Shown here one piece after another: positions 3,303 to 6,066 of a stretch of 35,747 nucleotides of DNA. A model generated the notes under the pieces. It was given only the letters and a program-made list of their open reading frames with translations. It did not search any database and was not told the DNA's origin. The number at the start of each line of letters is the position of its first letter. The stretch's first letter is position 1. The position numbers and the translations under genes are program-made. Where the stretch lies: contig CALEHW010000029.1 of assembly GCA_937877715.1 (NCBI GenBank), forward strand, positions 1-35,747. The letters run 5' to 3'. The DNA comes from an uncultured Methylophaga sp. Lineage in GTDB: Bacteria; Pseudomonadota; Gammaproteobacteria; GCF-002020875.

Positions 3303-3330
3303 TTGACATCGGGTCGCTGCGCTGTACAAT
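3303..3330 (+). promoter_or_regulatory. Promoter of tRNA-Val(GAC)
   Basis: A consensus TTGACA (3303-3308) and TACAAT (3325-3330, 5 of 6) are separated by 16 bases. The predicted start is about ten bases before the mature tRNA. This is the best-looking sigma-70 promoter in the window. Confidence 0.85.
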
Positions 3331-3346: not shown

Positions 3347-3423
3347 AGGCGCGTAACTCAGTTGGTTAGAGTGTCACCTTGACATGGTGGAAGTCGGTGG
3401 TTCGAATCCACTCGCGCCTACCA
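3347..3423 (+). tRNA. tRNA-Val (anticodon GAC)
   Basis: A 77-base tRNA with encoded CCA. The acceptor AGGCGCG pairs with CGCGCCT. The anticodon stem TCACC/GGTGG encloses TTGACAT, giving anticodon GAC (reads GUC and GUU). The T-loop TTCGAAT is standard. Confidence 0.96.
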
Positions 3424-3433
3424 ATTTTTATAA

Positions 3434-3486
3434 AGATGGTCAGTGCATTTGATGGCTAGCGCATCTGATGACTGACCATTTTTTTG
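3434..3486 (+). terminator. Terminator between tRNA-Val and thrS
   Basis: ATGGTCAGT (3436-3444) pairs perfectly with ACTGACCAT (3471-3479), followed by seven T. The loop holds a further imperfect pairing. It ends the tRNA transcript 55 bases before thrS, so thrS either has its own promoter or relies on read-through. Confidence 0.85.
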
Positions 3487-3505
3487 ATGATGGGTGGATA
3501 AACAT

Positions 3506-3526
3506 GCGGCCTTTGGTGTGGGCCGC
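3506..3526 (+). promoter_or_regulatory. thrS leader hairpin resembling a tRNA-Thr anticodon arm
   Basis: GCGGCCT (3506-3512) pairs with GGGCCGC (3520-3526) through six Watson-Crick pairs and one closing U-G pair. The 7-base loop is UUGGUGU: position 33 is U and positions 34-36 are GGU, a threonine anticodon. The hairpin ends four bases before the thrS Shine-Dalgarno GGAG (3531-3534). Known: E. coli ThrRS represses its own translation by binding a leader that mimics the tRNA-Thr anticodon arm. Inferred: the same control here. Confidence 0.6.
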
Positions 3527-3540
3527 CACTGGAGAAAATT

Positions 3541-5451
3541 ATGCCTCTGATTACCCTGCCTGACGGCTCCCAACGTAGTTTTGATCAAGCGGTCACCGTT
3601 TTCGATGTGGCCTCGGATATCGGCCCCGGGCTAGCCAAGGCAGCCCTGGCCGGCAAGATCGATGATCAACTGGTAGATACCTCCTATCTTATTGAGGGTG
3701 ACGTTACTCTCTCACTGATTACCAGTCGTGACGAGGAGGGGTTGGAGATTATCCGCCACTCCACCGCACATCTGTTGGCGCAGGCAGTCAAGGAGCTCTT
3801 TCCAGAGACCCAAATTACTATTGGTCCGGTTATAGAGAGTGGCTTCTACTACGATTTTGCTCGTGATGAGAAGTTCACCCCTGACGACTTCAAGACCATC
3901 GAGAAGAGGATGGCGGAGCTGGCCAAGCAGAATATCAAGATAGAGCGTTCCGAGATGGGGCGTGATGAGGCTGTTGCCTTCTTTGAGGAGCAGGGGGAGG
4001 CTTACAAGGCGGAGATCATTCGTGACATTCCTGCAGATCAGACCCTTTCGCTCTATCGTCAGGGCGACTTTATCGACCTCTGTCGTGGCCCTCATGCACC
4101 CTCTACCGGGCATCTCAAGGGTGGTTTCAAGCTGATGAAGCTGGCCGGCGCCTACTGGCGCGGTGATTCTGATAACGAGATGTTGCAACGCATCTATGGT
4201 ACAGCCTTCCCAGACAAGAAGCAGCTCAAGCAGTATCTACATCGACTGGAAGAGGCTGAGAAGCGTGACCATCGTAAAATTGGTAAGAAGCTCGATCTTT
4301 TTCATGCCCAGGAGGAGGCGCCGGGTATGGTCTTCTGGCACAGCAAGGGGTGGTCAATCTATCGTGAAGTAGAGGATTATGTGCGTGAGAAGCTGCGCCA
4401 TCATGGTTACCAGGAGGTCCATACTCCACAGGTAATTGATAGGGTGCTGTGGGAGAAATCGGGACACTGGGATAAATTTGGTGACATGATCTTCACTACC
4501 CATTCGGAGAATCGCGATTATGCGATCAAGCCGATGAACTGTCCTGGCCATGTCCAGATCTACAATCAAGGTCTACGCAGCTATCGTGACCTGCCACTGC
4601 GGATGGCTGAGTTTGGCTCCTGCCACCGTAATGAGCCCTCGGGCACCCTCCATGGATTGATGAGGGTCCGTAATTTTACCCAGGATGATGCCCATATCTT
4701 CTGTACCGAGGGTCAGATTCAGTCTGAGGTGGCGGCCTTTATGGATCTGCTGTTTGAGGTTTACGAGGACTTTGGCTTCAAGGAGGTGTTGATTAAACTT
4801 TCTACCCGTCCAGAGAAGCGAGTGGGTAGTGATGAGGTGTGGGATCAGGCGGAGCAGGCATTGGAGATCGCACTCAATACCAAGGGATTGGGTTGGGAGC
4901 TGCAGCCAGGTGAGGGCGCATTCTATGGTCCAAAGATAGAGTTCTCACTCAAGGATTGTATTGGCCGAGTCTGGCAGTGTGGCACCATTCAGGTTGATTT
5001 CTCGATGCCTGGACGGCTGGATGCCACCTATATTGATGAGCATGGAGAGAAAAAGAGCCCGGTTATGCTGCACCGTGCAATCCTCGGTTCGCTCGAGCGT
5101 TTTGTTGGAATTTTGATAGAGGAGTATGCTGGCTCGATGCCCGCGTGGCTCTCTCCGCTGCAGGCTGTTGTGGTCAATATTACGGATCATCAGCGTGAAA
5201 CCGCAGAAAATGTTGCAAAACAGCTGAATAATGCAGGGTTTAGGGTCGAATCAGACTTGAGAAACGAGAAGATAGGCCTTAAAATTCGCGAGCATTCCAT
5301 GCAAAGGGTTCCCTACATTCTGGTGATAGGGGATCGAGAGATGGAAGAGGGTGCTGTTGCTGTCCGTGCTCGGGGTGGAGAAGACCTCGGTACACTATCT
5401 GTTGAGGCGTTTATTGAGCTTCTTGAGAATGATATAGAGGCACGCAAGTAG
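3541..5451 (+). CDS. thrS: Threonyl-tRNA synthetase
   Basis: ThrRS charges tRNA-Thr. The 636-residue protein has all the expected parts: an N-terminal TGS domain (ITLPDGS), the editing domain with HSTAH (His73 and His77), the class II catalytic core ([45 protein letters not shown]) and a C-terminal anticodon-binding domain ([28 protein letters not shown]). The length matches E. coli ThrRS closely. The ATG has GGAG upstream and the N-terminus aligns with the family start. It is the first gene of the translation cluster and infC follows closely. Confidence 0.98.
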
Positions 5452-5505
5452 TGGTTTGCGTCTGCAGCCCCGTTGTTTTTATTTTATTGAACAGGAGAAC
5501 TTGAG

Positions 5506-6066
5506 ATCGCACTTCACCCAAGAGGGCCGAGAGGCCGGATGCCGGAGAAAATAAGAGAGCATCGAATCAATGATGAGATTATGGCGCCCGAATTACGTGT
5601 ATTTGGGGCTGATAAATCGGAGTCTGCTGTTGTTTCGAAAGGTGAGGCGCTGGAGATGGCGGATGAGGCTGGATTTGATCTGGTCGAGATTTCACCCAAG
5701 GCGGAGCCACCGGTATGCCGGATTATGGACTACGGGAAGTTTCTATTTGAAGAGAGCAAGAAGAAGAACGCAGCAAAGAAGAAGCAGAAAAAGGTTCTGG
5801 TAAAGGAGATCAAGTTCCGCCCGGGTACCGGTGAAGGAGATTATCAGATCAAGCTGAAGAATCTGATGAAGTTTCTGGGACAGGGTAACAAGACCAAAAT
5901 TACCATCCGCTATCGTGGACGTGAGATGGCTCACCGCGAGATTGGAATGGAGATGCTCAAGAGGATTGAAAAAGATCTGGAGGAGTACGGGAAGGTTGAA
6001 CAGTTTCCCAAGATGGAAGGGCGGCAGATGGTAATGGTGATTGGGCCGATCTCCAGGAAGAAGTAG
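5506..6066 (+). CDS. infC: Translation initiation factor IF-3 (probable AUC start)
   Basis: IF-3 binds the 30S subunit and checks start-codon pairing. The N-domain (RINDEI to [18 protein letters not shown]), the lysine-rich linker and the C-domain ([47 protein letters not shown]) are all present. The first in-frame ATG is at 5539, but its spacing to purine-rich bases is poor. An AUC codon at 5506 lies 8 bases after AGGAG (5493-5497), is in frame, and adds a basic N-terminus, giving 186 residues. Known: infC uses AUU in E. coli, which lets IF-3 repress itself. I therefore favour AUC. If ATG is used, the product is 175 residues. Confidence 0.9.

Follow-up and report, generated by a model that had tools for sequence, protein, structure and literature searches.

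The thrS leader of an uncultured Methylophaga sp. (contig CALEHW010000029.1; the whole stretch of 35,747 nucleotides that was analysed is called the window below) contains a hairpin that mimics the anticodon arm of tRNA-Thr, and this arm is very probably, at roughly 0.9, the translational operator through which threonyl-tRNA synthetase (ThrRS) represses its own gene. The assignment is based on the structure of the arm, its position, a loop restricted to Thr anticodons, covariation of the stem, specificity for thrS, identity with domain 2 of the Escherichia coli thrS operator, and the domains and anticodon-contact residues of the encoded ThrRS. Molecular mimicry has a textbook example in the E. 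coli thrS operator, which has been studied mainly in that one organism. On sequence grounds, the arm in the window is an orthologue of this known operator domain, set in a compact architecture.

The hairpin is composed of a 5′ arm GCGGCCU (3506–3512), a loop UUGGUGU (3513–3519) and a 3′ arm GGGCCGC (3520–3526) on the forward strand, with six Watson–Crick pairs and one U–G pair adjoining the loop. In anticodon-loop numbering, U33 is at 3514, G34 at 3515, G35 at 3516 and U36 at 3517, and base 37 is G. The original prediction of a seven-pair stem closing a seven-base loop, in which U33 is followed by GGU, agrees with both the letters and the folds, the arm being part of the MFE and centroid structures when 46, 74 or 150 nt are folded. 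The seventh, loop-closing pair was observed not to be conserved among relatives, however, and what the family shares, as the alignment has it, is a stem of 6 bp whose loop counts 9 nt, or 7 nt if a loose 31–39 contact is taken to close it. As had also been predicted, four bases (CACT, 3527–3530) separate the arm from the Shine–Dalgarno sequence. The distance between the arm and the AUG is 14 nt. The UG of the conserved CACUG is able to pair with CA at 3503–3504, apparently a remnant of the lower helix of the E. coli element. The anticodon loop of tRNA-Thr(GGU) from the same genome reads UUGGUAA, compared with UUGGUGU in the thrS arm. Modification of A37 (a t6A context, with U36–A37 in most arms) was considered and rejected; the window arm has G37.

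Table 1. Coordinates of the thrS region in the window.
Feature	Position	Strand	Basis
Sigma70-type promoter TTGACA-16-TACAAT (11/12), ahead of tRNA-Val	3303..3330	+	Consensus match only
tRNA-Val(GAC) gene, upstream of thrS	3347..3423	+	tRNA identification
Terminator-like hairpin AUGGUCAGU...ACUGACCAU followed by U7, between tRNA-Val and arm	3436..3485	+	Sequence and fold
Anticodon-arm mimic, stem GCGGCC(U)/(G)GGCCGC, loop UUGGUGU	3506..3526	+	Sequence, folds, class-wide comparison
GGU at anticodon positions 34–36 (Thr)	3515..3517	+	Positions 35–36 GU invariant in class
Conserved CACUG 3′ of arm (CAC, internal loop; UG can pair with CA 3503–3504)	3527..3531	+	Comparison
Shine–Dalgarno GGAG, 6 nt before AUG	3531..3534	+	Sequence
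thrS, full-length ThrRS (TGS, SAD, class II core, HGTP anticodon-binding domain)	3541..5451	+	Domain search, alignment

The hairpin alone proves nothing, because 7-bp, 7-nt hairpins with a UNGU loop are expected about once per window by chance (0.9 expected, two seen). Such a hairpin followed by CACTG was found in none of 30 simulated windows. Its location ahead of thrS and its conservation are what raise it above chance.

The leader of E. coli thrS carries, directly before the ribosome site, the element GUGAUC-UUUCGUGUG-GGUCAC-CACUGC, which is domain 2 of the operator, crystallised in complex with ThrRS (PDB 1KOG); an entry 1kog was found among the ThrRS structures. The window sequence GCGGCC-UUUGGUGUG-GGCCGC-CACUGG aligns with it base for base. 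Both elements share the stem pattern, a 9-nt loop with a Thr anticodon at 34–36 and a purine at 37, and the CAC internal loop with UG 3′ of the stem, and both adjoin the 5′ side of the thrS Shine–Dalgarno sequence. They differ in the loop (GGU in the window, CGU in E. coli), in the stem, which is GCGGCC/GGCCGC in the window with every pair still formed, in the lower helix (at most two pairs, compared with six in E. coli) and in the distance to the AUG (14 nt, compared with 21). The homology is also traceable through intermediates, in which the stem pattern and the CACUG tail are kept. The likeness to the E. coli leader that had been predicted was thus borne out but needed refinement: the E. 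coli operator contains the same element as its domain 2, and the window arm is therefore an orthologue rather than an analogue.

The loop was examined across the class with stems selected blind to it. GU was found at positions 35–36 in all 75 distinct perfect-stem arms of the full leader set, whereas base 34 was free (CGU 44, GGU 19, AGU 8 and UGU 4); a purine was present at 37 in 75/75 and U33 in 69/75. When one mismatch was allowed in the stem and only a 9-nt loop followed by CACTG was required, GU was again present at 35–36 in 44/44 arms from 111 leaders. The loops thus read as the four Thr anticodons and nothing else. This natural variation mirrors the identity rules of tRNA-Thr, with G35 and U36 fixed and 34 free, as mutational work would predict. 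Pairing was assessed in 104 arms anchored by sequence, where pairing was not required and one anchor (L089) is evidently false: all six pairs form in 95 of them, compared with a mean of 52 and a maximum of 63 in 1000 shuffles of the 3′ strands. In the 30-arm alignment, changes on both sides were observed at pairs 2 and 5. The arm sequences are related, and these counts are therefore not independent events. Taken together, the thrS leaders of relatives show compensatory stem changes with GGU, CGU, AGU or UGU in the loop, the pattern proposed in the original prediction for an anticodon-arm mimic of tRNA-Thr.

A covariance model (R1) was built from 30 arms and covers both the E. coli and the window element. 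In the genome of the window it gave a single match, at 3502–3532 (E 1.7e-13). Among 369 gammaproteobacterial genomes, 152 gave matches at E <= 0.05, about 120 of these below 1e-5. All 70 matches with E<1e-6 and a listed thrS position were found 7–55 nt before thrS on the same strand, as measured from the end of the model to the start codon (nearly all 7–19 nt), and none elsewhere; the strong matches without a listed thrS position that were inspected also precede thrS. Some leaders without a match were found to contain divergent, Methylophaga-type arms (GGCC/GGCC, lower helix GGUU/AACC), so the true share of arm-bearing genomes is higher than the R1 figure. The element is present in at least a third of the sampled Gammaproteobacteria. 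The operator core emerges as a compact, thrS-specific unit of roughly 31 nt across this class.

The Methylophaga-type arms were noted in L008, L054, L059, L076, L077, L082, L091, L092, L096, L210 and L241. They have a 4-bp upper stem, and GGUU/AACC replaces CA/UG in the lower helix, which reads as a lineage-wide re-pairing of that helix.

Outside thrS and outside the class, little was found. The strongest off-thrS match (E 4e-6; G308, C18:33394-33424) has no open reading frame starting directly behind it as a second target; the remaining ones are weak, and those inspected resemble chance. In 398 genomes of other Pseudomonadota nothing convincing was detected, the two R1 matches near E 7e-5 both lying elsewhere than before thrS. 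The off-thrS sequence in G308 (L143) is a near copy of the thrS arm of that genome, with one base different and the same flanking AGCAUA, and is perhaps a duplicated fragment.

Many other Gammaproteobacteria also lack the element, and it was absent from the Methylococcaceae rows of a ThrRS tree. On that tree (108 rows), the presence of the arm requires 11 changes, compared with 36 for shuffled labels, indicating block-wise inheritance interrupted by several gains or losses. Of five congeners, four retain the arm, and its spacing to thrS is unchanged. One has a GGU loop and, in its 3′ strand, a single change of C to U by which the pair becomes G–U (G004), one a CGU loop (G005), one an AGU loop (G003), and one a UGU loop with C at 33 and the stem GCGACC/GGUCGC (G002). 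The fifth (G001, leader L006) lacks the whole element. Loss in close relatives, which the original prediction had named as evidence against it, was therefore seen in one of the five, as a wholesale loss and not through drift, and represents a recent loss inside a single genus. Together with the absence from many Gammaproteobacteria, it shows that the element is dispensable over evolution. The remainder of the leader is not conserved among the congeners, except for tRNA-Val and the terminator-like hairpin, each of which is present in some members.

The proposed mechanism follows that of E. coli, from which binding, repression and tRNA competition are transferred by analogy. In E. coli, this same element is the hairpin that ThrRS binds; it interrupts a bipartite ribosome site, and the 30S subunit is excluded (PMC3858243). 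There tRNA-Thr competes for the enzyme, and when the Thr anticodon of the mimic is replaced by that of Met, control of the gene passes to MetRS (PMC9976931, PMC7373986). The ThrRS encoded in the window was found to align end to end with the E. coli enzyme (1qf6), with N575, R583, R589, E600 and R609 unchanged. These residues contact the anticodon (1QF6/1KOG). In the organism of the window, ThrRS would be both the product and the repressor of thrS. Free ThrRS would recognise the loop in the same manner as the tRNA-Thr anticodon, through G35 and U36, and the bound enzyme would sit on the mRNA at about −35 to −15, keeping the 30S subunit off the adjacent Shine–Dalgarno sequence. When tRNA-Thr is plentiful relative to ThrRS, it would compete for the enzyme, repression would be lifted, and more ThrRS would be made.

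Does the arm act alone, or is it one half of a two-arm operator? Regulation in E. coli uses a second arm, domain 4. The whole E. coli operator (domains 1–4, with two anticodon-like arms and a U-rich linker) resembles the window leader in having an arm before the ribosome site and a U-rich stretch upstream, the window U7 possibly corresponding to that half of the ribosome site which is U-rich in E. coli. It differs in its second Thr arm: in the window, a tRNA-Val gene and a terminator-like hairpin occupy the upstream region instead, and neither scan nor folds revealed a Thr-loop arm between tRNA-Val and the arm (3421–3505). The hairpin at 3436–3485 could itself be a second ThrRS site, since its part CAUUUGAUGGCUAG resembles the apical sequence of E. 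coli domain 4, CAUUUGUUGGCUAG, and tandem Thr arms do exist in the class; nevertheless, this reading is improbable. The predicted apical loop of the hairpin, GGCUAGC, contains no Thr anticodon, and the shared stretch is in a different pairing context. Two congeners (G003 and G005) keep only its outer stem and U-run, as in a terminator, and G004 lacks the hairpin yet has the arm. When the 130 nt upstream of the arm were scanned strictly in 110 strong leaders, only two further Thr arms were obtained, yet seven arms with AC at 35–36 were detected; these are the tRNA-Val(GAC) arms and formed the main class, which shows that the scan works.

The single-arm operator therefore remains the preferred reading for the window leader, as far as the region from tRNA-Val to the arm was searched. 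The minimal, single-arm form put forward in the original prediction held in this leader, and a second Thr arm proved very rare in the class; the form is common and not peculiar to this genome. Among the arm-bearing leaders compared, a lone arm is usual and additional arms are found occasionally. Tandem Thr arms were recognised by eye and fold in L090, L093, L146 (G356), L147 (G261), L148 (G041), L175 (G348) and L222 (G230), which are spread over several families; some of their stems are 11–14 bp long, and L148 has perhaps three arms. A lone arm may repress more weakly than the two-arm operator of E. coli, and the natural one-, two- and three-arm variants offer material to learn what a second arm adds.

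A second alternative concerns transcription. The only promoter-like site found by consensus scan between 3230 and thrS is the one ahead of tRNA-Val, suggesting that thrS may be made by terminator read-through, and binding of ThrRS to the arm might then affect read-through of the tRNA-Val/thrS terminator. The hairpin at 3436–3485, which a simple terminator scan skips for its overly long loop, ends 20 nt before the arm, and in 47 of 136 other leaders that have the arm, a terminator-like hairpin comes before it, often by 7–13 nt. However, the terminator precedes the arm and the two have no sequence in common, which means that the choice of RNA polymerase falls before the arm has been transcribed; moreover, no terminator is present at that place in G004 or in most leaders with the arm. 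This explanation is very unlikely. tRNA-Val, which in the window has a strong promoter-like site of its own, lies upstream of thrS in 140 of the 260 gammaproteobacterial leaders that reach 290 nt or more, irrespective of whether the arm is present. Least credible of all is a general structure near the ribosome site (ribosome standby, mRNA stability or thermosensing) with an incidental GGU: the arm does adjoin the Shine–Dalgarno sequence and such hairpins do arise by chance, but an element of that kind should withstand changes in the loop and precede many genes, whereas, with the loop ignored in selecting arms, GU at 35–36 never varies and base 34 does, and R1 matches thrS and essentially nothing else.

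How the operator was assembled can be addressed only tentatively. One possible scenario, somewhat doubtful at present, is that the basic thrS operator of Gammaproteobacteria is a single arm and that the two-arm form of E. coli and the tandem two- and three-arm leaders of other families arose by later addition of a modular anticodon-arm unit; in the genome of the window the arm would be attached to a tRNA-Val transcription unit, thrS would be expressed by read-through, and the terminator U-tract would serve as an upstream ribosome landing site. The U7 (3479–3485) is part of the terminator-like hairpin, and the linker that follows (3486–3505) is mostly unpaired and not U-rich. That the U-run acts as a landing site, like the U-rich domain 3 of E. 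coli, is a guess by analogy.

Other systems offer partial parallels. Autoregulation through an anticodon-like mRNA arm has been proposed for Saccharomyces cerevisiae aminoacyl-tRNA synthetases (AspRS, MetRS and others; PMC6542539), and it resembles the thrS arm in principle but is eukaryotic, concerns other enzymes and involves no claimed sequence relation. The T-box leaders of Gram-positive thrS genes likewise tune synthetase expression to tRNA. Unlike the thrS arm, T-box leaders bind tRNA itself and contain no anticodon mimic. A search of the window with the 4227 curated Rfam models, at gathering and permissive thresholds, gave only tRNAs and then chance matches, and no Rfam family matches the E. 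coli thrS leader either; the arm alignment provides a basis for the missing family. No report of the class-wide distribution of the arm was found in the open-access literature, and an earlier notice in subscription papers is possible. Apparently new, at least to us, are that a single arm is generally the rule, how widely it is spread, how its loop varies in nature, and that tandem variants exist.

Two minor observations were made in the window. Upstream of the leader, positions 1404–2165 encode an FKBP-type peptidyl-prolyl isomerase fused to a rhodanese domain. Behind thrS, in the stretch 5494–5541, the probable start codon of infC is an in-frame AUC at 5506, with the Shine–Dalgarno sequence AGGAG at 5494–5498, rather than the AUG at 5539; in E. 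coli, a rare start codon of this kind is the means by which IF3 keeps its own synthesis in check.
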